64,000 bases of DNA from Sipunculus nudus. Its lineage: Eukaryota; Annelida; Sipuncula; Golfingiida; Sipunculidae. Shown piece after piece: positions 6,066 to 55,487 of the stretch. The notes beneath the pieces are model-generated. The model made no database searches and was not told the origin of the DNA. It worked only from the letters and a program-made list of their open reading frames with translations. A program made the position numbers and the translations under genes. The stretch is from NCBI GenBank assembly GCA_026874595.1, contig CM049309.1, positions 4,500,076-4,564,075 on the forward strand. Reading direction: 5' to 3'. Position 1 is the stretch's first letter, and each line of letters opens with the position of its first letter.

Positions 6066-8960
6066 TAAACCTGTATAAACTAGTGATCCACCTGTATACA
6101 ACTAGCAATAAACCTGTATAAAACTATCCATCCACCTGTATACAACTAGCAATAAACCTGTATAAAACTAGTGATCCACCTGTATACAACTAGCAATAAA
6201 CCTGTATAAAACTAGCCATCCACCTGTATACAACTAGCAATAAACCTGTATAAAACTAGCCATCCACCTGTATACAACTAGCAATAAACCTGTATAAAAC
6301 TAGTGATCCACCTGTATAAAACTAGCAATAAACCTGTATAAAACTAGCCATCCACCTGTATACAACTAGCAATAAACCTGTATAAAACTAGTGATCCACC
6401 TGTATACAACTAGCAATAAACCTGTATAAAACTAGCCATCCACCTGCATACAACTAGCAATAAACCTGTATAAAACTAGCCATCCACCTGCATACAACTA
6501 GCAATAAACCTGTATAAAACTAGCCATCCACCTGTATACAACTAGCAATAAACCTGTATAAAACTAGCCATCCACCTGTATACAACTAGCAATAAACCTG
6601 TATAAAACTAGTGATCCACCTGTATACAACTAGCAATAAACCTGTATAAAACTAGCCATCCACCTGTATACAACTAGCAATAAACCTGTATAAAACTAGC
6701 CATCCACCTGTATACAACTAGCAATAAACCTGTATAAAACTAGCCATCCACCTGTATACAACTAGCAATAAACCTGTATAAAACTAGCCATCCACCTGTA
6801 TACAACTAGCAATAAACCTGTATAAAACTAGCCATCCACCTGTATAAAACTAGCCATCCACCTGTATAAAACTAGCAATAAACCTGTATAAAACTAGTGA
6901 TCCACCTGTATAAAACTAGCAATAAACCTGTATAAAACTAGTGATCCACCTGTATACAACTAGCAATAAACCTGTATAAAACTAGCCATCCACCTGTATA
7001 CAACTAGCAATAAACCTGTATAAAACTAGTGATCCACCTGTATACAACTAGCAATAAACCTGTATAAAACTAGCCATCCACCTGTATACAACTAGCAATA
7101 AACCTGTATAAAACTAGCCATCCACCTGTATACAACTAGCAATAAACCTGTATAAAACTAGCCATCCACCTGCATACAACTAGCAATAAACCTGTATAAA
7201 ACTAGCCATCCACCTGTATACAACTAGCAATAAACCTGTATAAAACTAGTGATCCACCTGTATACAACTAGCAATAAACCTGTATAAAACTAGCCATCCA
7301 CCTGTATACAACTAGCAATAAACCTGTATAAAACTAGCCATCCACCTGTATACAACTAGCAATAAACCTGTATAAAACTAGCCATCCACCTGTATACAAC
7401 TAGCAATAAACCTGTATAAAACTATTTATCCACCTGTATACAACTAGCAATAAACCTGTATAAAACTAGTGATCCACCTGTATACAACTAGCAATAAACC
7501 TGTATAAAACTAGCCATCCACCTGTATACAACTAGCAATAAACCTGTATAAAACTAGCCATCCACCTGTATAAAACTAGCAATAAACCTGTATAAAACTA
7601 GCCATCCACCTGTAAACAACTAGCAATAAACCTGTATAAAACTAGCCATCCACCTGTATAAAACTAGCAATAAACCTGTATAAAACTAGTGATCCACCTG
7701 TATACAACTAGCAATAAACCTGTATAAAACTAGTGATCCACCTGTAAACAACAAGCAAGAAACCTGTATAAAACTAGCCATCCACCTGCATACAACTAGC
7801 AATAAACCTGTATAAAACTAGCCATCCACCTGTATACAACTAGCATAAACCTGTATAAAACTAGCCATCCACCTGTATACAACTAGCAATAAACCTGTAT
7901 AAAACTAGCCATCCACCTGTATACAACTAGCAATAAACCTGTATAAAACTAGCCATACACCTGCATACAACTAGCAATAAACCTGTATAAAACTAGCCAT
8001 CCACCTGTATACAACTAGCATAAACCTGTATAAAACTAGCCATCCACCTGTATACAACTAGCAATTAACCTGTATAAAACTAGCCATCCACCTGTATACA
8101 ACTAGCAATAAACCTGTATAAAACTAGCCATACACCTGTATACAACTAGCAATAAACCTGTATAAAACTAGCCATCCACCTGTATACAACTAGCAATAAA
8201 CTTGTATACAACTAGCCATCCACCTGTATAAAACTAGCCATCCACCTGTATAAAACTAGCCATCCACCTGTATACAACTAGCCATCCACCTGTATACAAC
8301 TAGCCATCCACCTGTATACAACTAGCAATATACCTGTATAAAACTAGCCATCCACCTGTATACAACTAGCAATATACCTGTATAAAACTAGCCATCCACC
8401 TGTATACAACTAGCAATTAACCTGTATAAAACTAGCCATCCACCTGTATACAACTAGCAATAAACCTGTATAAAACTAGCCATACACCTGTATACAACTA
8501 GCATAAACCTGTATAAAACTAGCCATCCACCTGTATACAACTAGCAATAAACCTGTATAAAACTAGTGATCCACCTGCATACAACTAGCAATAAACCTGT
8601 ATAAAACTATTTATCCACCTGTATACAACTAGCAATAAACCTGTATAAAACTAGCCATCCACCTGTATACAACTAGCAATATACCTGTATAAAACTAGCC
8701 ATCCACCTGTATACAACTAGCAATAAACCTGTATAAAACTAGCCATACACCTGTATACAACTAGCAATAAACCTGTATAAAACTAGCCATCCACCTGTAT
8801 ACAACTAGCAATAAACCTGTATAAAACTAGCCATCCACCTGTATACAACTAGCCATCTACCTGTACACAACTAGTCATCCACCTGTACACAACTAGCCAT
8901 CCACCTGTACACAACTAGCCATCCATCTGTACACAGCTTGCCATCCACCTGTACACAGCT
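6066..8960. repeat. 44-bp dimeric minisatellite, right part (about 63 units)
   Basis: It continues the array interrupted at 1694. The alternation of CTAGCAATAAACCTGTATA and CTAGCCATCC/CTAGTGATCC monomers is regular. Around 8220-8330 and after about 8825 it decays to single 22-mers of the CCATCCACCTGTA(C/T)A type and ends near 8960. Occasional one-base deletions (CTAGCATAAACC) are shared by separated units, pointing to block duplication. There are no spacers, so it is not a CRISPR array. Confidence 0.93.
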
Positions 8961-11867
8961 AGCCTGGTGATCCACCTAACTTGTTGATTGTGATCATTAT
9001 GTTATACTTCCACAGATGATGATTTAGTTAGCAGAAAATATTTTAATAATTTATGAAGTATCACATCATAAATCATAATTACTCTCTGTAAAATTTTATG
9101 ATCAAAGTTTAATTTGTTTTGAATGTGTGTGGCTCAGTTGTGAAGCAATTTGTGTATTTCATCTCTCAAAATCTATAAACAAATGAGTAGCTGTTTGGGT
9201 CTTACACTGTTCATGCAGTTTAAGGAATGTTTATGTCTAGGTGGCCCGGGATTAATCTTACTTTTATGATAAAGAGCAGGTAGGTTTTTGATGACAGGTA
9301 GTGTCAGGTGTCCCGCCACATTAGTTACCACATTCATCAAGTCAGGTCACCATTCTGGTGCTTTAATTGGCTGTACACCATGTGAGTGGTGCTGATACTA
9401 TGTTACAAGAGTACATTCTGGGTGGTATGTTTACTGCTGTGTATAAGTGATACACTATTAACGCCAGATCATTATACTCAAGGTTTGTGTACTGCCCCTG
9501 TCTGTGGTAATCAACTGCCAAAGTATGATTTTATGGAGCACTTTATGTGTGTTGTTGATGGGGAGGCAGGAAACAAGGTGACAATATATGAACAGACCCC
9601 GGGAAGAATGTGGCTCCTTCTAACTTTACTTCTTTTTATTACACCAAGTGGTGATGTTATCATCCTGGTCTCTGTGGTAATGTGCTGGTGCGGTGATTAG
9701 ATTTGTCTTTTCAAACCTTAAACTCCACATCACGGATGCTTTATCCCAGTAACTCATGATTAAAGCAAATTCTTATGCCACAGCCCATGCTGAAGATATT
9801 AATTTTCACATCATATTTGCTATTAAAAATAGTTGACTTTTACTGTAATGGTCAGATTATGATGGAAAGTGTTAAATTCATTGACTTTATTGTGATCTTT
9901 TGGAGGCCTTGTCACATATTTTTGTTGTGTTAAACAGGACATTATGTTACTGTCAAACTAATTTAGCAAAGATTAATTAAAGCATTTTGTCAGTGTGAAA
10001 GTTTCACTGATGTTCAATTTCTTTAAGAAGGGCATCAGCTGTTTTCATAAATTCACATATATATATCATCCAGTGTTTGAGAAATTTTATTTTTGCATAA
10101 GCTATTTATTTACTTGAATACAAACACTTCCCATTTTAGAATGATTTTACTGGTGCATGTGCATACATTCATCAGGTCAAATGACATCTGATTGTTACCC
10201 CCCCCCCCCCCACCTCAAGAGAGCCAGGGGTGGGAAATGGGGAGGATATGTCATGGGGATCAGCCCCACTTAATGTCTGTGTATTTCCATTCCTATCGAC
10301 TTTTATTATTAAATTATTATTAATGCAGATGTATTTTTGGTCTTCCCGACAGATAAGGTTTTGATTATGTTTGATCAATATTTGACTTTTTATAAATATT
10401 TTAAATTTTGACCTTGACTTATCTTCACTGATCTTGTTGGCATCTCTGCACTGAACCTCTTTAAAATGTTAGATACATAACATACTAGATCCATAATATG
10501 AGCTAAACTTTCCTCTGTGCAACAGTTTCTAGTCTCTACATGGTATTTACTCATGATATTTAACATTTTCATCAATTATAGATAGAATAAATTCAGTAAT
10601 GATCAGCTGTACTTTGTGAATGACATTTATTCTGAATACCATGCTATTGAAAAATTGTGCAGGAGCAGTGACATTACATACAACAATTTACTGGTATTGA
10701 CCTCTTTTTTTCCAATTCTAAATCATGAGGATAGGATATATATTAGGATGATGATCAATTAACGGATCCAGTACTTGGCAGTTTTCATGGCAGCAGATAA
10801 TTCTTATATTTTGTTGTCTCTAAATGGGCCTCATGTCCAAAGTACTATCTTTGAAATCAAAGCCTAATGTCTTAAATTGTATTAATATTCTGTTTCTCCC
10901 TAGGGATTAGGACATCATCAAATGAAAAAACGGCAAATTGGGTAAAATAAATGCTGATGATTGCTAATATTAAGTCAGGGAGGGGAAAAATGATCAAGTG
11001 TTTAAGTATAAAAACCTCTGGACTATTGTAGTTTTTCTTAAGTTGTAGGTTATAGGTAAGGTTTGTGAATTGAAGTGGGGCTTACAAATGAATGAAAATA
11101 AGTTTGTGCTATGTTAGGGGGGAGGGGGTTATATGTCACTGGTCATTGAGAGTGGGTGGATGGATTGGTGTACATGACTGGTTTCTGTTTCCTGTACCCT
11201 GTGTAACATGCTGTTTTTAGACTGATGCAGCTAAATCAGAGGATAAATAGCATGCCTGAACTGGCCAGCTCTTCTATATTTATAAACACCTAGTCCTGTA
11301 TCAAAGGTCTATGATGTGCCCAGTTTAGTGCAGCATTTGGCAGCTGTCACTCTAAATGATGCCAGGTGACCAGAGCAGCCAATTATTAAGCATCAGTCAC
11401 CAGACAGTGTTTTTTATATTCAGTGAATCACATGAAATGAACATTTCATGCAGATTTCTGTCCTAGCACTGTTGTTTATGTGTTGGTATGTGTGTGCATG
11501 CAACATAACACAATGATGATCTTTTAAATCAGGTTGAAATGATTATACAGATCATGAAAATAATGACTATATGTAGAAACAATATGTTTACACAGTTTTA
11601 TGATTGCCAGGTTCATGAATAATTGCATTAGTGTTATGTTTAGAAAATATCCTGGCTTCTGGGTGATTCATGGTACAGTTAATTGTTTTGAGTGCTAGTA
11701 GTATTAGTACCTTTTTACAAGGTAACATAGCTGAATCTGCTAAAATAGCTGTATATAATCTGCTATAACCTGTTCTTGCTATATTGTTTTATACTTTAGT
11801 GTTTCCTTTTGACAGAAACAGTTATTTGCTGAGTCTTTATTCTGCAACAAATAGAAATAGAATAACA
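8961..11867. other. Unique AT-rich DNA, no gene recognised
   Basis: There is no exon with convincing splice sites or protein similarity. A 104-codon open frame at 9386-9700 (+) has hydrophobic stretches but no recognisable domain and is probably chance. A poly-C run lies at about 10199-10211. In a peroxidasin-type gene this could be intron upstream of the LRR-cap exon or 5' flank. Confidence 0.5.
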
Positions 11868-43500: not shown

Positions 43501-46500
43501 TAAGGCCAATGGTACTTTTTGAGCAGAAGGTCCCTGGTTCAAACCCCACTGGTGCCTCAAATGCAAAATTTTGGAATCTCTATAGAACGTAAGATGTTCA
43601 CTCCTATGTCTTGATGTGTCATGACTTAGGGATAATTCCTAACCTTGTGCATATAAAATTTGAAGTCCAGAAGGCTTAAAAATGCAGTTTCATTCTTGGA
43701 TATACATACATGGACAAGACAGCCTCTCTCAATTGGTGTGAATAACTACCTGTGTTTTTAGAAAATTGTAAAAATTAATTATTATATTTGTTGTATTTTT
43801 TCATTGCTGTTAATAAATTTATTCAACAACTGTAAACTCAAAGAGGATCAAATCTTGAGACATTTTATGTATTTTATTTGTAGAGGTTGATTATAGAGAG
43901 CTGATTTCACCATCCCACCTTGCTGTACTTGCCAACCTGTCAGGCTGTGCTGCACACAGAAAACAGGTTAACTGTAACAACATGTGTTACCATCACAAAT
44001 ACCGCACTGTAGATGGAACGTGCAATAACCTACAACACCCAATGTGGGGAGCTTCTCTCACGCCACTCAAGCGCATGCTCCCACCAGTGTATGAAAATGG
44101 TTTTAATTCCCCAGTTGGTGAGTATTGATTTTATCTGCATATATAAACACAAGTATCTGAAAATGCAGCGTGTATGTTGCCTCTTGTAATAATTGTAAAC
44201 TGTTGAAAGACAGAGATCTTGTAACAGGTTTAAAAATACCTCTTGCAATATCTAAACTGTTGAAATACAGTGATCCTGTGATGGGTTTAAAAATACAACA
44301 CTTTGATCTATGTTCATCTTTCTTCTAGACGACTTTGCACTAAGCTTAATACATGTTTGACAGAAACTTTTGTTTTGATCAACTGTACTCACATTGTGGA
44401 GATTAAGTAATGAACAAGGGTTTATTCCTTGGTCTTTAAATCTGCGTCAATGACTCAATTAGTTTATTCCAAATTCTAATAATGTGGAGAAACCACCAAT
44501 CAATATTTATTTAACCTTCATACACCATCATCTGAAGCTGGAAAACTGTTAACAGTCAAACAGAATAGAGACAGAGTTACACATGGGCATGAAAATTAAG
44601 ATAAAGACTACAATTATTTTTACATAATTGCAAAGCACTTGGGAAATTTATAATTGTTTGATTTAAACCAAGTCATTATACACGGTTGACAAATTTTATC
44701 AATACATTGTGTTTCAGGATGGAATAGAAATAAACTATACAAAGGCTTCAGAAAGCCTAGTGCCCGGTCTGTGTCCCTGAATTTGATGTCGACAGGGAGC
44801 ATCACTCCAGATAAAGACTACACACACATGCTGATGCAGTGGGGACAGTTTGTGGACCACGATCTTGATTTTACACCTATGGCGATCAGTACAGCTAGGT
44901 TCAGTGATGGTCGGCTGTGTAATGAAACTTGTGATAATCAGGCTCCATGCTTCCCCATCCCAATTCCAAGTTACGATCCTAGAATTCGTCGTCACCAGTG
45001 TATAGGGGTCACAAGGTCCAGCGGTATATGTAATTCAGGGATGACATCTGTGTTTTACAAACAGCTACAGCCTAGGCAGCAAGTCAATCAGATTACTTCA
45101 TTTTTGGATGCTTCTAATGTTTATGGTAGTTCAGAAGAAGAACTCCGACATCTTCGTGATTCAAGTGATCGGAGAGGATTAATGCGTATTGGTCTTATTA
45201 TGCCATCAGGAAAAGGTTTGCTCCCACCTAATGATGTCGGTGCAGCCGTAGACTGCCAGATGGACCCTAATGCAGATCATGTACCATGTTTCTTAGCAGG
45301 TGATCATAGAGGAAATGAACAACTGGGACTGCTCGCGATGCATACAGTGTGGATGAGGGAGCACAACCGTATTGCTAAGACCCTGTTTAACCTAAATCCA
45401 CACTGGGATCAAGATATGCTGTTTCATGAAGCGAGAAAAATTGTCGGGGCAGAAATGCAGCATATCACATTCACAGAGTGGTTGCCTAAATTTATCGGTG
45501 CTAAAGGTATGGAGATGGTCGGCACATACAAAAATTATGATCCAAATGTTGACTCATCTGTAACAAATGCTTTTGCCACTGCTGCCTACAGAGTGGGTCA
45601 CACTTTAATTAATCCTATAATTTATCGACTAAATGCATCATTTCAACCTATTCCCCAAGGGAACTTGGCTTTACACAGAGCATTTTTTGCTCCATGGAGA
45701 TTAGTTGAGGAAGGTGGTGTTGATCCGTTACTCCGAGGTCTCATTGGAGTTTCTGCTAAACGGATGATGCCAGGGGAGTACTTGAATCTCGAACTCACTG
45801 AGAAGTTGTTTAAATTAGCACATGAGGTGGCCCTTGACCTGGCTGCCTTGAACATCCAAAGAGGCCGAGATCATGGCCTGCCCTCTTATAATGCTTACAG
45901 GAAATGGTGTGGCTTACCAGAGGCAGAAACCTTTGATGAACTGAGTGATGAAATAACAAGTGAGGAGGTTCGAGACAAGTTGCAACAGTTGTATGGTCAC
46001 CCAGGTGAGATATTTATCATTCGGACATTGGTTTATCTGTCAAAATGTTTATTTTTATAATCTAATTACATTATATAATAGGCCTGTGAATTTGTAAGGG
46101 GTCTTCAGTTCAAATTGATTATCATATTATGCCATATGATGCAATTCAAACATTATATTAATTCTATCAGAGACATACCTACTAAATTTTCTTATAATAT
46201 GGTGCTCAACTGAATATTATAATGTACTTAGCATTTATGTTGTAAAAAGATCAATCCCTGTAAGCATAACCAGGCCAAAATCTAATGTAGGACATACAAT
46301 GACTTTTCTTGTAAAACAGTAGTGCTTCCAGCATATATATAACAGTATTGTTTTTATTATATGCAACATCATATATACAGTAAAACCTCTAAATTACAAC
46401 CAGCAATTAGACCTCTAGAAGCAGTGACATTTTTAAGGGTGGTCATATAAAGTGCAAACAAGAATCAAGACCATGAGCAAAGTGGTGGTAATTTTGAGGT

Positions 46501-49500: not shown

Positions 49501-52500
49501 CAACTGTGTCTTTGGACAACACCTACAGAAAATGATCTTTCAGTCTCTGACCTCGTCAGCTAATCTTTCTGCTGGTGAGACAGCCACAGAACGTTTTCTT
49601 CTTGTAATGCCTCTCTCAGATGCAGAACACCCATTGAATGTCACAAGTATGATCTCACAGCGTTGTGTTATTCAGGGTCAAACAACTGTACTCCATACAA
49701 GTTGAGTTAGTGTCCACTGCCACACATTAATTCTAATCAGTCACCTCAAACAGAGACACAGCAGCATATAGGTGTACTGCACAAAACTGGTGCCTGGGTT
49801 ATACTCCACCTACATTTCCCCAGCCTTCAGTATACATAAAATCTGACAGAAAACAAATTCCAGCATCACCTGGAATCTTTTACCATGCACAGATCATACA
49901 AAACATGTGGGAGAGCCTGACCTAAACTGAACTTGTTAAACGTAAATATCAAATCTATGTAGAAATTGTACAAAACACTCCCTCTAAAAGGTATTTTTAT
50001 ATACATGTAACAATGTAACAGATTTTTCTTTTGGAAATCATAATTACAACTGAAGGAAATGAGATAAGTATTATGACTCATTCTTATTTTACAGATTAAA
50101 AGATTAGAAACCAAAATGGAGCTTTCAGTCAGAGGAAGTACAGATTGTGTGGATCAAGTTGGCAGTATCCACAAGGATGGAGAAAAATGGTCTGCAGGGA
50201 AGTGTAAAAAGTGTAAATGTGAGGTAGGTACAGAGTGAACTGGTCTGTGGGGAAGTGTAAAAAGTGTAAATGTGAGGTAGGTACAGAGTGAACTGGTCTG
50301 TGGGGAAGTGTAAAAAGTGTAAATGTGAGGTAGGTACAGAGTGAACTGGTCTGTGGGGAAGTGTAAAAAGTGTAAATGTGAGGTCGGTACATAGTGAACT
50401 GGTCTGTGGGGAAGTGTAAAAAGTGTAAATGTGAGGTAGGTACAGAGTGAACTGGTCTTTTGGGAAGTGTAAAAAGTGTAAATGTGAGGCAGGTACATAG
50501 TGAACTGGTCTGCAGGGAAGTGTAAAAAGTGTAAATGTGAGGTAGGTACAGAGTGAACTGGTCTTTGGGGAAGTGTAAAAAGTGTAAATGTGAGGTAGGT
50601 ACATAGTGAACTGGTCTGTGGGGAAGTGTAAAAAGTGTAAATGTGAGGTAGGTACATAGTGAACTGGTCTGCGGTGAAGTGTAAAAAGTGTAAATGTGAG
50701 GTAGGTACATAGTGAACTGGTCTGTTAGGAAGTGTAAAAAGTGTAAATGTGAGGTAGGTACATAGTGAACTGGTCTGTGGGGAAGTGTAAAAAGTGTAAA
50801 TGTGAGGTAGGTACATAGTGAACTGGTCTGTGGGGAAGTGTAAAAAGTGTAAATGTGAGGTAGGTACATAGTGAACTGGTCTGCGGTGAAGTGTAAAAAG
50901 TGTAAATGTGAGGTAGGTGCAGAGTGAACTGGTCTGTTAGGAAGTGTAAAAAGTGTAAATGTGAGGTAGGTACATAGTGAACTGGTCTGCGGTGAAGTGT
51001 AAAAAGTGTAAATGTGAGGTAGGTACATAGTGAACTGGTCTGTGGGGAAGTGTAAAAAGTGTAAATGTGAGGTCGGTACATAGTGAACTGGTCTGTGGGG
51101 AAGTGTAAAAAGTGTAAATGTGAGGTAGGTACATAGTGAACTGGTCTGTGGGGAAGTGTAAAAAGTGTAAATGTGAGGCAGGTACATAGTGAACTGGTCT
51201 GTGGGGAAGTGTAAAAAGTGTAAATGTGAGGCAGGTACATAGTGAACTGGTCTGTGGGGAAGTGTAATAGTGTAAATGCGAGGTAGGTACATAGTGAACT
51301 GGTCTGTGGGGAAGTGTAAAAAGTGTAAATGCGAGGCAGGTACATAGTGAACTGGTCTGTGGGGAAGTGTAATAGTGTAAATGCGAGGTAGGTACATAGT
51401 GAACTGGTCTGTGGGGAAGTGTAAAAAGTGTAAATGTGAGGCAGGTACATAGTGAACTGGTCTGTGGGGAAGTGTAATAGTGTAAATGCGAGGTAGGTAC
51501 ATAGTGAACTGGTCTGTGGGGAAGTGTAAAAAGTGTAAATGTGAGGCAGGTACATAGTGAACTGGTCTGTGGGGAAGTGTAATAGTGTAAATGCGAGGTA
51601 GGTACATAGTGAACTGGTCTGTGGGGAAGTGTAAAAAGTGTAAATGCGAGGCAGGTACATAGTGAACTGGTCTGTGGGGAAGTGAAAAAGTGTAAATGCA
51701 AGGCAGGTACATCGTGAACTGGTCTGTGGGGAAGTGTAAAGAGTGTAAATGTGAGGCAGGTACATAGTATACTGGTCTGTGGGGAAGTGTAAAAAGTGTA
51801 AATGTGAGGCAGGTACATAGTGAACTGGTCTGTGGGGAAGTGTAATAGTGTAAATGTGAGGTAGGTACATAGTGAACTGGTCTGCGGTGAAGTGTAAAAA
51901 GTGTAAATGTGAGGTAGGTACATAGTGAACTGGTCTTTTGGGAAGTGTAAAAAGTGTAAATGTGAGGTAGGTACATAGTGAACTGGTCTGCAGGGAAGTG
52001 TAAAAAGTGTAAATGTGAGGTAGGTACATAGTGAACTGGTCTGTGGGGAAGTGTAAAAAGTGTAAATGTGAGGTAGGTACATAGTGAACTGGTCTGTGGG
52101 GAAGTGTAAAAAGTGTAAATGTGAGGTAGGTACAGAGTGAACTGGTCTTTTGGGAAGTGTAAAAAGTGTAAATGTGAGGTAGGTACATAGTGAACTGGTC
52201 TGCAGGGAAGTGTAAAAAGTGTAAATGTGAGGTAGGTACATAGTGAACTGGTCTGTGGGGAAGTGTAAAAAGTGTAAATGTGAGGTAGGTACATAGTGAA
52301 CTGGTCTGTGGGGAAGTGTAAAAAGTGTAAATGTGAGGTAGGTACAGAGTGAACTGGTCTGTTAGGAAGTGTAAAAAGTGTAAATGTGAGGTAGGTACAT
52401 AGTGAACTGGTCTGTGGGGAAGTGTAAAAAATGTAAATGTGAGGTAGGTACATAGTGAACTGGTCTGTGGGGAAGTGTAAAAAATGTAAATATGAGGTAG

Positions 52501-54061
52501 GTACATAGTGAACTGGTCTGTGGGGAAGTGTAAAAAGTGTAAATGTGAGGTAGGTACATAGTGAACTGGTCTGCGGTGAAGTGTAAAAAGTGTAAATGTG
52601 AGGTAGGTACATAGTGAACTGGTCTGTGGGGAAGTGTAAAAAGTGTAAATGTGAGGTAGGTACATAGTGAACTGGTCTGTGGGGAAGTGTAAAAAGTGTA
52701 AATGTGAGGTCGGTACATAGTGAACTGGTCTGTGGGGAAGTGTAAAAAGTGTAAATGTGAGGTTGGTACATAGTGAACTGGTCTGTGGGGAAGTGTAAAA
52801 AGTGTAAATGTGAGGTAGGTACATAGTGAACTGGTCTGTGGGGAAGTGTAAAAAGTGTAAATGCGAGGCAGGTACATAGTAAAATAGTTTTAGGTTTGAA
52901 TTTGGTGTGAAAACTATAAATAAGTAACCCTTGAAAACTGCTGAAAACAAATTAAGCTATAAAAAGTCCCCAAAAAATTTTAACTCCACAATTGTCTAAA
53001 CAAAGCAACTGAGCATACTGCAATATCATATCTCTCCACTTTCACTTATTTTAACATACAGTTTTTGCCTTGAAATACTTCCTACTTGTGTATTCATGAA
53101 TCTGTATGGCTATGTCCAAAAGATTTATGGTATAATGAACTGAGAAATAACAAGATAAAAGAAGTGGCTTCCATGGTCCAGGGCTGGAGAACAGGGCTCA
53201 GAGCTAAGAGATAGTGAGTTGAAATCTCAGGCAAAGTCTTGAAATTTTTCACAGTTCAGGCTACACCCAGGGTGAGCACTCTGCAGACTTAATTGGAAGA
53301 CAGCTATGTCTCACAAACTACTTGGGCTTAATAAGGAGCGGTGACATTATGCTCAAGTATTCGCTACACTAACCTCTGAGGAAACTGCAGTTACAGGTCC
53401 AGGGCTGGAGACCAGGGGATGCTGTCTGTGGAATTCCCCATGCATAATATTTGACCAATCACAATGCAGGTATCACCAGCACAATCGGATGTTCTTTGAG
53501 GTGCCGGTCAATTTGCACTGCAGTTGAAAGTGCTTTATAGCTTAGAGTTTTTTCCACCCCCTGTGATTTTACCTTTCCTAGCACAAACTAACTGGGTGTT
53601 TGACAGCTTGCCTAACCTGAAGAATCCTTCAATTTCTCACAGCATGTGAGTGGAAGGTCCCTGGGAGGTCATGCGATGTGTACAGAGTGTACAAATGAGT
53701 GTGCCTTTTGAGGGTCCCTCAGTGTTATGACCTAGCAATGGGAATGACATACACACAGGACTAGCAGGAGTGGTAGTCCAAGCCTGGTTGACATCAGGAT
53801 TATTGCATGTAAGCCCAATGTCACCAAAAATGAAAATAATTGAGAGATATTTTTTAAAAAAGAGTTTTTAAATTTTTTAACTATTTGGAATTTATTATAG
53901 AATTTTTGTTATTAATGATATTATTATATTATATAAATGTAAGTCTGACATAACTATTTTCATTTCAGAATGGCCAGATAGAATGTGACAGAGAAGTGTG
54001 TCCTCCAGTTAACTGTCCTTCACCTCAAGTTGTTCCTGGTGAATGCTGTCCAGTTTGCTGA
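19407..54061 (+). CDS. PXDN: Peroxidasin (partial at the 5' side), 15 exons
   Basis: This is a secreted haem peroxidase of the extracellular matrix. In animals peroxidasin makes hypobromous acid, which forms sulfilimine cross-links in collagen IV of basement membranes. The exons encode, in order: LRR C-terminal cap, four Ig domains, peroxidase domain, coiled coil and VWC domain ending in CCPVC and a stop. All 15 exons have AG/GT borders and compatible phases, giving 3955 nt, or 1317 codons plus stop. The distal Asp-His, catalytic Arg and proximal His of animal haem peroxidases are present. Signal peptide, LRR N-cap and LRR repeats are missing and probably lie upstream or went unrecognised. 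Introns are loaded with Helentron-like, LINE and MITE insertions, and two exons have their donor ends tandemly amplified. The family call is firm; exact expression and isoforms are unknown. Confidence 0.95.
19707..20506 (+). mobile_element. Helentron-like element, family C (800 bp)
   Basis: It starts TTTTTATGCCCCCGCCAC and folds back on itself (TGCCCC..GCCAC-AAA-GTGGC..GGGGCA). It ends with GGTGGGGGCATTC, the perfect 6-bp-stem hairpin GTGTCG-TTC-CGACAC (20486-20500), then AT and CTAG (20503-20506). Inside are four diverged modules of about 180 bp, each with a GGGCAGATAATGACCAGTTA-type word and a GTTGACCTACTTTTGA word. It lies in the intron 140 bp after the LRR-cap exon. No coding capacity is seen. 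Confidence 0.75.
20507..23221. other. Intron sequence, nothing recognised
   Basis: This is the rest of the first visible peroxidasin intron. It is AT-rich with only short chance open frames (for example 21467-21763). About 22195-22700 has phrases such as TAAGACTGCC..AAAAACAA..GCACTAAAATC reminiscent of an old family D copy, but I could not define its ends. Confidence 0.5.
23222..23339 (+). CDS. PXDN: Peroxidasin exon: Ig domain 1, first half
   Basis: It encodes [20 protein letters not shown], then [18 protein letters not shown]. This is the B-strand Cys and C-strand Trp of an I-set Ig domain, with the GxPxPxIxW signature. The acceptor is TTATTTGCAG and the donor GTGAGT. The exon ends in phase 2 (AA), and the next exon supplies C to make Asn. 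Splitting an Ig domain after the C-strand Trp is normal for peroxidasin genes. Confidence 0.93.
23498..27692 (+). mobile_element. Family D element, copy 2, interrupted by family A copy 2
   Basis: The 5' end TTTTTAGCTCAGCTGAC has the same fold-back as 2562. The 3' end at 27661-27692 has AGCTGAGCG, the imperfect palindrome GATCCATAGGTC and CCTTG. Without the nested 24509-26118 segment it is about 2.59 kb and tracks copy 1 along its whole length, including the block around 26640-27640 that matches 4140-5150 nearly base for base. It lies in the intron splitting Ig domain 1, in gene orientation. Confidence 0.8.
24509..26118 (+). mobile_element. Helentron-like element, family A copy 2
   Basis: It begins TTGTATCGCCAGACATAGTC (5' fold-back, then ACTATG and a CCG tract at about 24557-24575). 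It ends with GTCTGGGGATACT, the hairpin GGCACC-TGC-GGTGCC and CTAG (26115-26118). The related empty site at about 3600-3625 (GTAATTGTTTTAAG) shows where it entered the family D host. The inside has four tandem modules of about 326 bp, each ending in GGTGGCGCCACC (24839, 25165, 25491) or a decayed version (about 25814). Confidence 0.8.
27960..28235 (-). mobile_element. 3' fragment of a CR1/L2-type LINE, pseudogenised
   Basis: On the - strand the segment near 28095-28225 reads as [20 protein letters not shown] followed by LKTYLF. This is the conserved tail found just after the reverse transcriptase in many CR1/L2-like LINEs (LWNxLPxxLRxxxSLxxFKxxLKTxLF). It is followed by AAATGCGC and a TTGCGCTATATAAG word near the 3' end, also typical. 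The rest of the element is missing. The reading is mine from the reverse complement. Confidence 0.55.
28236..29193. other. Intron sequence, nothing recognised
   Basis: There are two short + strand open frames (28374-28607, 28736-28942) with Cys residues but no domain and no fit to peroxidasin. They are probably chance. The region ends at the next Helentron-like element. Confidence 0.5.
29194..31800 (+). mobile_element. Helentron-like element, family A copy 3, with expanded 289-bp array
   Basis: It begins TTGTATCCCCAGAC with the same 5' fold-back, ACTATG and CCG tract as copy 1. It ends GTCTGGGGATACT, hairpin GGCACC-TGC-GGTGCC (about 31773-31787) and CTAG at 31797-31800. After one GGTGGCGCCACC module (29521-29532) it carries about seven tandem 289-bp modules. 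Each contains the perfect word AGGTCAAAGGTCAAGGTCA, starting at 29856, 30146, 30435, 30723, 31012, 31300 and 31589. Copy 1 has only about three decayed modules. Open frames of about 67 codons recurring every 288-289 bp are by-products of the array. Confidence 0.82.
31801..32563. other. Intron sequence, nothing recognised
   Basis: AT-rich and unique, ending in the acceptor CAGTTTGTTGCAG of the next peroxidasin exon. The open frame at 32391-32744 begins here but is only real from 32564. Confidence 0.5.
32564..32736 (+). CDS. PXDN: Peroxidasin exon: Ig domain 1, second half
   Basis: It encodes [17 protein letters not shown], then [20 protein letters not shown] and ending YQGDP. The DxGxYxC motif supplies the second Ig cysteine. 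The exon starts with C, completing the Asn codon of the previous exon, and ends in phase 1 before GTAGGT. It is the partner half of 23222-23339, although 9.2 kb of intron filled with mobile elements separates them. Confidence 0.94.
33101..33109 (+). CDS. PXDN: Candidate 9-nt microexon of peroxidasin
   Basis: The nine bases GGGTGCCAG are flanked by a good acceptor (TATGTTGCAG) and a strong donor (GTGAGT). Both neighbouring exon junctions are phase 1 and nine is a multiple of three, so inclusion keeps the frame and adds Gly-Val-Pro in the hinge between Ig1 and Ig2. The main exon ends YQGDP and the next starts VPTELL, so the insert would double a VP motif. Without transcripts this could be coincidence. 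Confidence 0.35.
33268..33965 (+). pseudogene. 5'-truncated CR1/L2-like LINE
   Basis: It encodes, with in-frame stops, [32 protein letters not shown] and [17 protein letters not shown] followed by [10 protein letters not shown]. These are the ordered C-terminal blocks downstream of the reverse transcriptase in CR1/L2-type LINEs. A TTACGCTTTACAAAATAAA word and a short ATT repeat at 33930-33965 form the 3' tail. Stops interrupt it near 33430 and 33460. It sits in the Ig1/Ig2 intron in gene orientation. Confidence 0.8.
34089..34358 (+). CDS. PXDN: Peroxidasin exon: Ig domain 2 (complete)
   Basis: It encodes a whole I-set Ig domain in one exon: [58 protein letters not shown] and AVARVLVQ. The two cysteines (LEC, YTC), the core Trp and DRGRYTC are all present. 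Acceptor CATTGCAG, donor GTATGA. Phase 1 at both ends, as expected for a shuffled Ig exon. Confidence 0.96.
34640..34756 (+). CDS. PXDN: Peroxidasin exon: Ig domain 3, first half
   Basis: It encodes [20 protein letters not shown], then [19 protein letters not shown], giving the first Cys and core Trp. The acceptor is GGTTTCAG and the donor the slightly weak GTCAGT. Phase 1 at both ends. It pairs with 37331-37489, 2.6 kb away. Confidence 0.93.
35102..37227 (+). mobile_element. Family D element, copy 3 (possibly a double 5' end)
   Basis: A diverged 5' end TTTTTAGCTCACCTGAGTG at 35102 is followed after 270 bp by a better one at 35372 (TTAGCTCAGCTGACTATAAG). The 3' end is AGCTGAGCG, the perfect palindrome GACCCATGGGTC and CCTTGTT at about 37200-37230. 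This is either one element with a duplicated head or a newer copy inside an older one. The inside is AT-rich and non-coding. It lies within the Ig3 intron in gene orientation, ending about 100 bp before the Ig3b exon. Confidence 0.7.
37331..37489 (+). CDS. PXDN: Peroxidasin exon: Ig domain 3, second half
   Basis: It encodes [20 protein letters not shown], then [14 protein letters not shown] and [10 protein letters not shown]. The second Ig Cys is present, but the usual Tyr two residues before it is Val (EVEC instead of YxC). Acceptor TCTCTTGCAG, donor GTAATT. Phase 1 at both ends. Its last 50 bases plus donor are duplicated downstream (see the repeat at 37437-37655). Confidence 0.94.
37437..37655 (+). 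repeat. Tandem duplication of Ig3b exon end plus splice donor (2.5 copies)
   Basis: The unit runs from the exonic AGAGCAGGA through the donor GTAATT to an intronic A run, with a period of 88-89 bp. Copy 1 is partly exonic (37441 on), copy 2 starts at 37529 and copy 3 at 37618. Copy 3 has lost about 35 internal bases but keeps the donor. Donor words lie at 37490, 37578 and 37631. Copies 1 and 2 differ by a few substitutions and a short insertion. Confidence 0.92.
37970..38552. mobile_element. hAT-like non-autonomous DNA element (583 bp)
   Basis: The ends are inverted: TAGTGGTGGG at the left, CCCACCACTA at the right, with further inner matches (GATCATCGA, GATGATCGAT, CCGACT/AGTCGG). The flanks are a perfect 8-bp target duplication, TAATAAAT (37962-37969 and 38553-38560). 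An 8-bp duplication and this type of end are features of hAT elements. No transposase is present. Confidence 0.85.
38844..41288 (+). mobile_element. Family D-like element, copy 4 (divergent subfamily)
   Basis: It starts TTTTTAGCTCAGCTGAC with the hairpin partly decayed (TTTCAGTCATGCTGGGCTATAG). It ends AGCTGAGCG, GACCCATGGGTC and ACTTGTT at about 41258-41288. Unlike copies 1-3 the interior has AAGGTCAAAGGTCAAGG words (perfect at 39182-39200) and modules of about 140 bp with ACATCTTTGAAAAG and TTTCACATA, like family A. It looks like a mosaic of D ends and A-type modules. It lies in the Ig3/Ig4 intron. Confidence 0.65.
41325..41493. mobile_element. Possible pogo-like MITE abutting the Ig4 splice acceptor
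   Basis: GGTGGAACCTGTCTGATCC at the left and AACCAGGTATCACTGTA at the right resemble the ends of pogo-type MITEs (TACAGTnnnACCT...). The internal TTATAAAACCACTTGTCTG and TTTATAAAACCAGTGCATTA repeat a phrase. The right end stops about 14 bases before the Ig4 exon. The ends are imperfect, so confidence is low. Confidence 0.35.
41508..41774 (+). CDS. PXDN: Peroxidasin exon: Ig domain 4 (complete)
   Basis: It encodes a whole I-set Ig domain: [55 protein letters not shown] and TANVTVL. Both cysteines, the core Trp and DEQGIYTC are in place. Acceptor ATTGTTACAG, donor GTGAGT. Phase 1 at both ends. Confidence 0.96.
41775..42619. other. Intron, nothing recognised apart from an AT repeat
   Basis: AT-rich unique sequence with a short (AT)n run at about 42546-42562. 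No mobile element ends were found. Confidence 0.5.
42620..42883 (+). CDS. PXDN: Peroxidasin exon: linker into the peroxidase domain
   Basis: It encodes [20 protein letters not shown], then [31 protein letters not shown] and MVNVTE. This helical segment between Ig4 and the catalytic domain is characteristic of peroxidasin (the [11 protein letters not shown] block). The acceptor is ACTTATAG. The donor GTCATT is weak but phase 1 fits the next exon exactly. Confidence 0.92.
43157..43260. repeat. Two-copy tandem repeat of about 51 bp in an intron
   Basis: TATGACATG(C/T)(A/G)GAGACATC followed by TTCAGG and AAAACTAAAACA occurs twice in a row. Simple local duplication. Confidence 0.7.
43488..43740 (+). 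mobile_element. tRNA-derived SINE, 5' part
   Basis: TAGCCTAGTAGTTAAGGC has an A-box pattern and GGTTCAAACCCC, about 45 bases later, is a good B box. Together they form the tRNA-like head of a SINE. It does not fold as a working tRNA (no clear acceptor stem). The 3' border is not defined. Confidence 0.6.
43884..44117 (+). CDS. PXDN: Peroxidasin exon: start of the haem peroxidase domain
   Basis: It encodes [47 protein letters not shown] and [20 protein letters not shown]. The C..YHxKYRxxDGxCNNLxxPxWG block is the conserved opening of animal haem peroxidases. Acceptor TTTTATTTGTAG, donor GTGAGT. Phase 1 at both ends. Confidence 0.96.
44170..44300. repeat. Two-copy tandem repeat of about 60 bp in an intron
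   Basis: The phrases CCTCTTG(T/C)AATA, TAAACTGTTGAAA and GGTTTAAAAATAC occur twice in the same order. A local duplication, not including any exon. Confidence 0.65.
44718..46004 (+). CDS. PXDN: Peroxidasin exon: catalytic core of the haem peroxidase
   Basis: This 1287-nt exon encodes most of the catalytic domain. [16 protein letters not shown] carries the distal Asp-His pair (Asp at 44855, His at 44858). [15 protein letters not shown] carries the catalytic Arg (45434-45436). [11 protein letters not shown] carries the proximal haem-ligand His (45599-45601). [18 protein letters not shown] is the family signature near the end. All residues needed for haem binding and peroxide cleavage appear intact. 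It begins [11 protein letters not shown] after GTTTCAG and ends in phase 1 at GTGAGA. The single large exon contrasts with the small exons around it. Confidence 0.97.
46377..46542. mobile_element. Short MITE with pogo/Tc1-like ends
   Basis: The left end ACAGTAAAACCTCTAAATTA is matched inverted by GAGAGGATTTACTATA at the right. The interior includes GGTGGTCATATAAAGTG and GAGGTGGTTGCTAAAAAGAG. About 165 bp, non-coding, in the intron after the catalytic exon. Confidence 0.6.
46632..46749 (+). CDS. PXDN: Peroxidasin exon: peroxidase domain, GGVAE block
   Basis: It encodes [20 protein letters not shown], then [18 protein letters not shown]. NIDLxVGGxxE...GPTFxCxxxxQFxRxRDGDRFW is highly conserved in animal haem peroxidases. 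The exon ends in phase 2 (AG) before GTCTGA, and the next exon supplies G to make Arg. Confidence 0.96.
47355..47563 (+). CDS. PXDN: Peroxidasin exon: end of the peroxidase domain
   Basis: It encodes [39 protein letters not shown] and [18 protein letters not shown]...QL..I......R.ICDN is the closing block of the domain. Acceptor ATTGTGCAG, strong donor GTAAGC. Phase 2 in, phase 1 out. Confidence 0.96.
48326..48681 (+). CDS. PXDN: Peroxidasin exon: linker and coiled-coil start
   Basis: It encodes [19 protein letters not shown], a low-complexity Pro/Gln/Asp-rich linker of about 60 residues, then [20 protein letters not shown]. The last part is a heptad-patterned coiled coil, the region that assembles peroxidasin into trimers in studied animals. 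FGRR corresponds to the place where vertebrate peroxidasin has a basic cleavage site; whether it is cut here is unknown. Ends in phase 0 before GTGAGC. Confidence 0.93.
48682..50094. other. Intron, nothing recognised
   Basis: 1.4 kb without mobile-element ends or tandem repeats, ending in the acceptor ATTTTACAG at 50094. Confidence 0.6.
50095..50223 (+). CDS. PXDN: Peroxidasin exon: coiled-coil end and first half of the VWC domain
   Basis: It encodes [10 protein letters not shown] (end of the coiled coil), [16 protein letters not shown], then [11 protein letters not shown], the CxxCxC centre of a von Willebrand factor C domain. Phase 0 at both ends. The donor is GAG|GTAGGT at 50224. The last 36 bases of the exon and the donor are the founder of the 53-bp array that fills the next 2.7 kb. 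Confidence 0.95.
50188..52880 (+). repeat. 53-bp minisatellite made of the VWC exon end plus its splice donor, 51 units
   Basis: Each unit has the form tggtctgtggggaagtgtaa, then aaagtgtaaatgtgag, then the donor gtaggtac and atagtgaac. Unit 1 is the genuine exon end (50188-50223) and donor; I count 50 further units, all intronic. Most carry GAG|GTAGGT. Others have GTCGGT, GTTGGT, or GC at the donor (GAG|GCAGGT). From about 51230 to 51660 units alternate between 51-bp (GTGTAATAGTG, donor GT) and 53-bp (donor mostly GC) forms. Because 53 is not a multiple of three and the reverse strand lacks stops, spurious frames of up to 880 codons appear on the - strand. Confidence 0.97.
52881..53968. other. 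Rest of the VWC intron
   Basis: Unique AT-rich DNA. The phrases AGGGCTGGAGA(A/C)CAGGG at about 53182 and 53402 suggest one old local duplication. It ends in the acceptor TTTTCATTTCAG at 53968. Confidence 0.6.
53969..54061 (+). CDS. PXDN: Peroxidasin last coding exon: second half of the VWC domain
   Basis: It encodes [16 protein letters not shown], then [10 protein letters not shown] and a TGA stop at 54059-54061. CPPxxC...GECCPVC is the standard VWC ending. Phase 0 entry fits the end of the exon at 50095. The protein ends directly after the domain, without the short basic tail seen in some relatives. Confidence 0.95.
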   Translation, partial: NGQIECDREVCPPVNCPSPQVVPGECCPVC

Positions 54062-54561: not shown

Positions 54562-55487
54562 TGTTATCTGATCAGTAGGAACTATTGAAATGTTATCTGA
54601 TCAGTAGGAACCATAAAATGTTATCTGATCAGTAGGAACTATTAAAATGTTATCTGATCAGTAGGAACCATACAATGTTATGTGATCAGTAGGAACTATT
54701 TAAATGTTATCTGATCAGTAGGAACCATACAATGTTATGTGATCAGTAGGAACTATTAAAATGTTATCTGATCAGTAGGAACCATAAAATGTTATGTAAT
54801 CAGTAGGAACTATTAAAATGTTATCTGATCAGTAGGAATCATAAAATGTTATCTGATCAGTAGGAACCATTAAAATGTTATCTGATCAGTAGGAACTATT
54901 AAAATGTTATCTGATCAGTAGGAACTATTAAAATGTTATCTGATCAGTAGAAACCATAAAATGTTATGTGATCAGTAGGAACTATTAAAATGTTATCTGA
55001 TCAGTAGGAACCATAAAATGTTATGTGATCAGTAGGAACCAGAAGCGGATCCAGGGGGGGGGGTCCAGGGGGTCCGGACCCCCCCCCCCTTTTTCACCCG
55101 AAGCAACCTTTTTTAAGGTGTTTTAGACGTAATTTTGCGGCCTGGACCCCCCCTTTTCCAGACGTGATGACCTTTTTTTTAGGATTTTCATTAGTCCTCC
55201 TGGGTTGGACCCCCCCTTTTCATAAATCCTGGATCCGCCCCTGGGAACTATTAAAATGTTATCTGATCAGTAGGAACCATGAAATGTTATGTGATCAGTA
55301 GGAACTATTAAAATGTTATCTGATCAGTAGGAACTATTAAAATGTTATCTGATCAGTAGGAACCATAAAATGTTATCTGATCAGTAGGAACCATAAAATG
55401 ATATGTGATCAGTAGGAACTATTAAAATGTTATCTGATCAGTAGGAACTATTAAAATGTTATCTGATCAGTTGGAACTATTCAAATG
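54562..55487. repeat. 28/29-bp minisatellite downstream of the peroxidasin stop, about 25 copies
   Basis: Units of the form ATGTTATCTGATCAGTAGG plus AACTATTAAA or AACCATAAA, often alternating. It is split at 55040-55243 by a small transposon. Each unit contains the palindrome CTGATCAG, and every AACTATTAAA unit carries the hexamer ATTAAA, a weak polyadenylation signal in animals. Confidence 0.93.
55040..55243. mobile_element. 204-bp MITE inside the minisatellite
   Basis: The inverted ends are CAGAAGCGGATCCAGG at the left and CCTGGATCCGCCCCTG at the right. The flanks share GGAAC (55035-55039 and 55244-55248), a possible 5-bp target duplication. The inside has several poly-C/poly-G runs and CCCCCCTTTT repeats. 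The ends resemble hAT-type MITEs, but an 8-bp duplication is not seen. Confidence 0.75.

Follow-up and report, generated by a model that had tools for sequence, protein, structure and literature searches.

A peroxidasin gene with 51 tandem copies of an exon end and its splice donor: mirage anatomy in a probable protostome

Minisatellites that carry splice sites were reportedly described originally by Turri (1995) in the human gene IFI6 and, as 'mirages' of amphioxus, by Canestro (2002). Mirages are minisatellite-like tandem duplications of exon-intron boundaries, on the donor or the acceptor side, which the available part of one account places in Adh3 and in globins, with no interference with splicing reported and with an unstable copy number (PMC3087553). 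Among these globins, BflGb6 and BflGb9 carry mirages, and the BflGb6 array has six and three copies in two haplotypes (available part of PMC3087553); PGBD5 and troponin C are further hosts according to the available text of PMC3902484. In human IFI6 (6-16/G1P3), two downstream units of a donor minisatellite are used as donors and yield three mRNA species, as far as the available account goes (PMC4526556). Human segmental duplications hold internal tandem repeats at exon borders, on average four 30-bp units in recent paralogues, which are said to generate alternative splicing (PMC2812944, available part). For earthworm metallothionein, the available text describes intronic minisatellite-class repeats, with duplications of the fourth exon in one clone that are absent from the final transcript (PMC12783039).

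Here we describe an array in a peroxidasin gene, located within a stretch of 64,000 nucleotides that was analysed as a whole (the window). As in the amphioxus mirages, its unit spans an exon-intron boundary (36 exonic and 17 intronic nucleotides, the latter being the donor GTAGGT and 11 more), the authentic border is the copy beside the unique exon, and the copies carry AG/GT splice signals, with a GT donor in 40 of 51 copies and GC in 11; only copy 1 continues the VWC frame. In its anatomy the peroxidasin array is a mirage, and it belongs to a large set of such arrays in the genome of a probable protostome. Unlike BflGb6, for which six and three copies are given in the available text, it has 51 copies, and other sampled donor arrays have up to 44; its copy number exceeds those given for published mirages in the available part of PMC3087553. 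The host is a probable protostome and probably not a cephalochordate, and taxon does not enter into the definition of mirages. Unlike the IFI6 minisatellite, the unit is 53 or 52 bp long and every decoy donor leads to a stop codon. The array shares its position at an exon-intron border with the repeats of human segmental duplications, as far as these are described in the available text, but lies in an apparently single-copy gene and has 51 copies. It also shares the presence of intronic minisatellite-class repeats with earthworm metallothionein, whose account, in its available part, is without an exon-end-plus-donor array (PMC12783039). A literature search, weak in that subscription papers lay mostly outside it, found no description of such arrays at genome scale or in a protostome.

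The mir-2 family is known only from protostomes. A genome search for it gave five matches over the cut-off, four of them within 2.2 kb, while the control search gave a single match, below the cut-off, in Caulobacter; the mir-2 cluster marks the host as a probable protostome and probably not an amphioxus. As a separate observation, nine COX1-like frames of 577-578 codons without in-frame stops lie on contigs C60, C61, C62, C66, C72, C74, C75 and C89; C123 holds a further frame, of 489 codons, and C5 a fragment. No clear mitochondrial contig was seen, and these frames suggest that the assembly includes bacterial contigs, from a symbiont or a contaminant. Neither the molluscan haemocyanin domain nor its control gave a match.

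The array at the VWC exon of peroxidasin

The host gene is identified as a peroxidasin by an An_peroxidase match (E = 1.5e-140) at C4:4544807-4546087, corresponding to window positions 44732-46012; of the 15 matches listed, no other spans the greater part of the peroxidase domain in one piece. Joining the exon at 50095-50223 to position 53969 gives 73 residues followed by a stop codon, which by our own reading would form a complete VWC-like C-terminus. Neither AATAAA nor ATTAAA is present in the host intron (50224-53968). Among the listed matches of the peroxidasin VWC query, the only other place is C3:11515942-11522691, with four VWC-like matches. Other minisatellites occur in the window: two arrays with a common 29-bp unit (54562-55039 and 55244-55487) downstream of the peroxidasin stop codon, a separate 44-bp minisatellite at 6069-8964 with about 66 copies, 95% matches and strong negative GC skew on the plus strand, and a shorter array related to the latter at 1241-1694.

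Table 1. Features of the peroxidasin locus (window positions) and arrays elsewhere with homology-backed exon borders
Feature	Position	Strand	Description
Main peroxidase open frame, peroxidasin	44690..46060	+	456 codons; An_peroxidase 1.5e-140; from the ORF list
VWC exon (first part), peroxidasin	50095..50223	+	129 nt, 43 codons, phase 0; acceptor tttacag precedes 50095
Copy 1 of the 53-bp unit	50188..50240	+	36 exonic nt, true donor GTAGGT and 11 intronic nt; identical to copy 7 (53/53)
True 5' splice site GAG/GTAGGT	50224..50229	+	Sole donor of 51 that leaves the VWC frame intact
Host intron	50224..53968	+	3745 nt, 71% array; last 1088 nt beyond the array
50 intronic decoy copies	50241..52880	+	35 with the true 9-base donor, 4 weaker GT, 11 GC
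Final coding exon (remainder of VWC with stop codon)	53969..54061	+	Protein match at G000:C4:4554038-4554133
L009, donor array			PH domain protein 9.4e-4 (PDB only; Pfam rescan PH 0.018 and two unrelated families)
L011, donor array			ABC_membrane 4.5e-6 (Pfam); ABCC transporter 1.5e-7 (PDB sequence search)
L013, donor array			cNMP_binding 0.0016 (Pfam); PKA type I regulatory subunit 1.1e-25 (PDB)
L015, donor array			MIP 5.7e-13 (Pfam); aquaporin
L021, donor array			Arv1 0.0013 (Pfam)
L022, donor array			LRR 6e-18 (Pfam)
L030, donor array			TPR 5.9e-9 (Pfam)
L031, donor array			PI3_PI4_kinase 7.7e-9 (Pfam); PI4K2A 4.4e-32 (PDB)
L033, donor array			Alpha-catenin 0.0072 (PDB only; Pfam rescan Vinculin 0.084)
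L036, donor array			CRIP 9.9e-7 (PDB only)
L109, acceptor array			MMS19_N 4e-13 (Pfam); PDB 2.7e-10; match from first codon after last acceptor
L110, acceptor array			TPR_DOCK 7.7e-32 (Pfam); PDB 8.7e-20; match from first codon after last acceptor
L111, acceptor array			Lectin_C 1.9e-9 (Pfam), C-type lectin; match begins only at residue 19

Analysis with Tandem Repeats Finder places the array at 50188-52880, with a period of 53, 50.9 copies, 94% matches and a score of 4812. Cutting at the anchor TGGTCT yields 51 head-to-tail copies, 44 of 53 bp and six of 52 bp, the last one running out of register after 52880. This bears out the preliminary description of a unit made of the last 36 bases of the exon, GTAGGT and 11 more bases, repeated 51 times and beginning with the real exon end. 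The 44 full-length 53-bp units have a mean pairwise identity of 95.4%, and the exonic part of most copies differs by about two bases from that of copy 1. Because copy 1 is exonic, the intronic copies number 50 and not 51. The same description spoke of about 50 near-identical donors, which is right for their number but not for their sameness, since the 50 decoys comprise 35 sites of the true type, four weaker GT sites and 11 GC sites. Over all 51 copies, the donors are GAG/GTAGGT (36), GAG/GCAGGT (10), AAG/GCAGGT (1), GAG/GTCGGT (3) and GAG/GTTGGT (1). The computed pairing with the 5' end of U1 amounts to -10.1 kcal/mol for the GTAGGT type, -6.3 for the GTC and GTT types and -5.5 for the GC types, relative to -11.8 for a perfect site.

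Splicing from donor 1 carries the frame through 73 residues to the end of the protein and is the only option that gives an intact VWC domain. With any of the 50 later donors, translation would end after residue 47 of the exon frame, at a stop four codons past the true exon end, so that the earlier statement that any later donor truncates the protein in mid-VWC holds for 50 of 50. The stop is always that of GTA GGT ACA GAG TGA because reading past the true exon end crosses the tail of copy 1 itself; of the TAG or TGA previously announced within 15 bases, the TGA is found and the TAG variant does not arise there. The array strand is strongly G-rich, with a GC skew of 0.635 over 50001-52000. In the ORF list, the minus strand of the array (50129-52951) is open for 940 codons, and for 743 in another frame. 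An antisense gene was considered and rejected, the long opening probably being a by-product of the C-poor unit and not a sign of coding.

Copy 1 is 98.1% identical to copies 35 and 39, and the other full-length copies apart from copy 7 are at most 98% identical to it. The string of variants along the array contains repeated blocks, the longest of seven copies, a length reached by one of 2000 shuffles. These blocks suggest turnover of the array, and repeated duplication of multi-copy blocks, the exonic copy included, could be the source of the variant map. A DNA search of the genome with two units gave 25 matches, all in C4:4550260-4552958 and thus at this locus only, which speaks against a dispersed or mobile origin of the unit; the search tool skips very common words, and this outcome is no proof of rarity.

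Donor and acceptor arrays elsewhere in the genome

The 1.43-Gb genome was searched for three perfect AGGTRAGT motifs in tandem, with the reversed pattern as a control. At spacings of 12-42, 1074 matches (585+489) were obtained versus 535 (231+304) for the reversed pattern, and at spacings of 43-73, 2014 (1000+1014) versus 1418 (612+806), where the counts represent copies and not arrays. The matches listed, roughly the first hundred of each search, include at least 36 distinct donor arrays, 26 with short and 10 with long spacing, from about 267 and about 118 Mb of C1-C3, respectively. For all 36, the upstream side was taken, the piece for L028 stopping short of the start of its array. Open frames of 60 nt or more that end at the first consensus donor number 42 and occur at 29 of the 36 loci, and 41 of these frames were covered by the Pfam scan, L038:823-891 being left out.

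A Pfam match with E ≤ 0.01 is found at the exon end in seven of 36 arrays. Among the 29 arrays that lacked an accepted Pfam match, four (L009, L019, L033 and L036) were put through PDB searches, which add three at E < 0.01; ten of the 36 arrays thus start at an exon end backed by homology (Table 1), with L009 and L033 as the weakest. The PDB search with L019 gave no match, and a Pfam rescan of ten trimmed candidate exons at E ≤ 1 gave nothing for L003, L007, L012, L016, L019, L027, L032 and L036. Two Pfam matches in L038 were dropped as a repeat artefact before counting. By eye, seven more arrays look like exon ends (L003, L007, L012, L016, L019, L027 and L032). In the PKA type I regulatory subunit gene (L013), the homology reaches the last codon before the first donor, and the next exon, 2131 nt past this donor and behind TTTTCAG, carries the protein on. 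Scaling the six short-unit and four long-unit cases by the bases surveyed gives a crude estimate of about 80 homology-backed donor-array cases genome-wide, which leaves out arrays like that of peroxidasin, whose donor does not fit AGGTRAGT. In the ABCC transporter gene (L011/L082, C2:8512622 onward), the 42-bp unit is in frame and open and ends in a pyrimidine tract-CAG/GTAAGT, acceptor-like and donor-like together; a leak there would add 14-residue repeats.

On the acceptor side, searches for three TTTYCAGG motifs gave 510+526 matches versus 145+114 for the control in the first search, and 375+703 (1078) versus 255+1403 (1658) in the second, which is below its control. About 32 or more distinct acceptor arrays are present among the matches listed, and 20 of them, hand-picked and in part for an exon-like look, were taken downstream. 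Eight candidate exons were scanned with Pfam, which yielded homology-backed exon starts for three of the 20 arrays (Table 1) and no match for L112, L104, L114, L105 and L098. In these three, the real acceptor is, as predicted from the matches, the last copy of the array. Across the homology-backed donor and acceptor arrays, the copy predicted to keep the known protein is the exon-proximal one.

The MMS19 array (L109) extends over C1:8484928-8488090 and beyond, with 3.2 kb of listed 44-bp copies of acceptor plus exon start, about 70 by length. Compared with the listed copies, TTTTTCAG, which were selected by the search pattern, the authentic acceptor at the end of the array, TTTTTTAG, looks weaker. 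At a TPR exon (L030/L091; C1, about 2457923-2463922, minus strand), arrays seem to flank both sides, with a 40-bp array of about 48 copies (counted from the edge of the retrieved piece) at its 5' part and a 62-bp array of about 36 copies at its 3' end. Because the exon is apparently flanked by two arrays, both of its splice sites would stand amid dozens of copies.

Proposed origin of the arrays and their probable tolerance by splicing

The reading that we consider very probable is blind growth of a minisatellite over an exon border, tolerated since the exon-proximal site wins; the array has the anatomy of a mirage and is most likely neutral. At peroxidasin, ordinary minisatellite turnover would have brought the array to 51 copies after a tandem duplication of a 53-bp segment (the last 36 nt of the exon plus the adjoining 17 nt of intron); the observed anatomy and the shared variants point to this process. 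Copies 2-51 are intron because copy 1 adjoins the unique exon body and copy 51 the unique intron. Whenever a unit that straddles an exon end is duplicated in tandem, the array comes to lie between unique exon and unique intron, and its exon-proximal copy thus preserves the message. Under exon definition, splicing pairs the two ends of an exon by nearness. Here splicing would pair the acceptor at 50094/50095 with the nearest donor, that of copy 1, to define the exon, and the decoys, silent if exon definition holds, would leave together with the intron. We infer from the sequence that donor 1 is used. Low-rate use of decoys would be unsurprising, since 35 of them match the true donor in all nine bases and are preceded by almost identical exonic sequence.

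The fate of the decoys was analysed in 17 arrays (peroxidasin, the 10 homology-backed ones, L003, L007, L012, L016, L027 and L032). Decoy donor cores do not differ in conservation from flanking columns (mean difference -0.005, Wilcoxon p = 0.61, in the 16 of 17 arrays with at least six copies; +0.005, p = 0.92, in the 11 homology-backed arrays including peroxidasin), in a comparison where copies had been aligned on the very columns then compared, which could mask differences. The decoy donors are neither preserved nor eroded, and no selection on them is detectable. Multiples of three account for five of 17 unit lengths and seven of 17 first spacings, and harmless lengths are not clearly preferred. 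With donor 2, the outcome would be a stop in eight of the 17 arrays, a frameshift in six and an open in-frame insert in three (six, four and one in the 11 best-supported arrays). A functional or regulatory role of the arrays found no support in this set, which showed neither preserved donor cores nor a clear preference for multiples of three.

The preliminary description left the choice between a first donor that always wins and an array that regulates the C-terminus. The former is favoured by the recurrence of the design in conserved families, by the shift of frame or stop with donor 2 in 14 of 17 arrays, by the mirror design at acceptors, where the final copy is the real one, by decoy cores that are neither kept nor eroded, and by the available account of amphioxus mirages as harmless to splicing (PMC3087553); no result here shows the latter. 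Two published accounts count against a purely neutral view, namely PMC4039745, whose available text ties minisatellites within introns to alternative splicing in C. elegans, and that of the exon-border repeats in human segmental duplications (PMC2812944). Against blind growth, the loose by-eye count given below hints that arrays lie at exon ends more frequently than blind placement would put them there.

It is quite unlikely that exon borders are preferred birthplaces of minisatellites here, for example through a DNA process coupled to transcription or splicing, and not random targets. The baseline consisted of 40 single CAGGTRAGT sites with 39 open frames, taken in order from about 100 listed, clustered sites being left out. 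Gp5_trimer_C matches on repeats (L039, L062) were dropped before counting, and Pfam matches were found at five of the 40 sites (L067, L070, L072, L073 and L076). By Pfam only, arrays and baseline do not differ (7/36 versus 5/40, Fisher p = 0.53). An excess appears in loose calls made by eye and not blind (17/36 versus 8/40, p = 0.015), which comprise the ten homology-backed and seven by-eye arrays on one side and the five baseline sites plus L065, L066 and L069 on the other; part of the baseline itself belongs to degenerate arrays, and its motif is one base longer than that of the arrays. The excess of triple-donor patterns over the reversed control and the strong G-richness of the array strand also point towards such birthplaces. 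Against them, the match counts tally copies and not arrays, real donors alone make CAGGTRAGT commoner than its reversal (26382 versus 19426), and one of the two acceptor searches falls below its control. Our conclusion goes no further than that arrays show no visible avoidance of exon ends, and we claim no enrichment.

Regulation of the C-terminus by the array, through decoy donors that lead to the stop four codons past the exon end, is very unlikely, and the chances are as slim for the outcome it would have, a secreted peroxidasin with truncated VWC or transcript decay in proportion to array length. The uniform stop at residue 47 would suit such a role, as would its distance to the exon junction, 38 nt with donor 2 and 91 nt with donor 3. 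According to the 50-55 nt rule for transcript decay, the products of donors 3-51 would be subject to decay, whereas that of donor 2 would escape it. Mammalian peroxidasin loses its C-terminal part to furin cleavage, and the matrix receives the protein only in its processed form (PMC8533639, available part), so a truncated peroxidasin could be viable and a leak through decoys might be tolerated; human IFI6, in its available account, does employ downstream repeat units as donors (PMC4526556). However, the decoy donor cores are not preserved, the same arrangement is found in unrelated genes, and published mirages are said in the available texts to yield no aberrant mRNAs (PMC3087553, PMC3902484).

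That the intron itself arose when an AGGT-bearing piece of exon was duplicated in tandem is hardly credible: the locus shares with the described route a tandem duplication spanning or close to a splice site and the AG/GT at the junction of the unit, but there the duplicated segment supplies both the GT and the AG sites (PMC4974935, available part), whereas no new intron is seen at peroxidasin and the acceptor at 53968/53969 sits 1088 nt past the array, outside the duplicated segment. An assembly artefact, or a collapsed or expanded repeat, is just as improbable. Near-perfect tandem arrays are a typical place for assembler errors and one published mirage was misassembled in a genome draft (PMC3087553, available part), but the blocks of up to seven copies in the variant map (1/2000 shuffles), the six 52-bp copies, the graded donor variants and the comparable arrays elsewhere in the assembly all speak for a genuine array.

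Meaning of the arrays for splicing

Arrays of this kind may be a hazard for gene prediction. Splice-site choice is usually studied with built minigenes that hold few sites. The natural genes found here offer dozens of sites in nearly identical contexts that differ mainly in their distance from the exon body, on the donor as well as the acceptor side. If RNA confirms that the exon-proximal copy alone is used, this would be a very strong form of exon definition; if leak through the decoys occurs, the arrays would provide a natural dose series.

That exon borders are minisatellite hot spots, with on the order of 100 genes carrying up to 50 or more near-identical competing donors or acceptors, we regard as conceivable but unlikely. 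If true, exon definition and the tolerance of splicing to decoys could be tested on this genome as it stands, and new protein repeats might arise from units that are in frame. Mirages are apparently common in this probable protostome, which suggests that minisatellite growth may quite generally give rise to them as a by-product.
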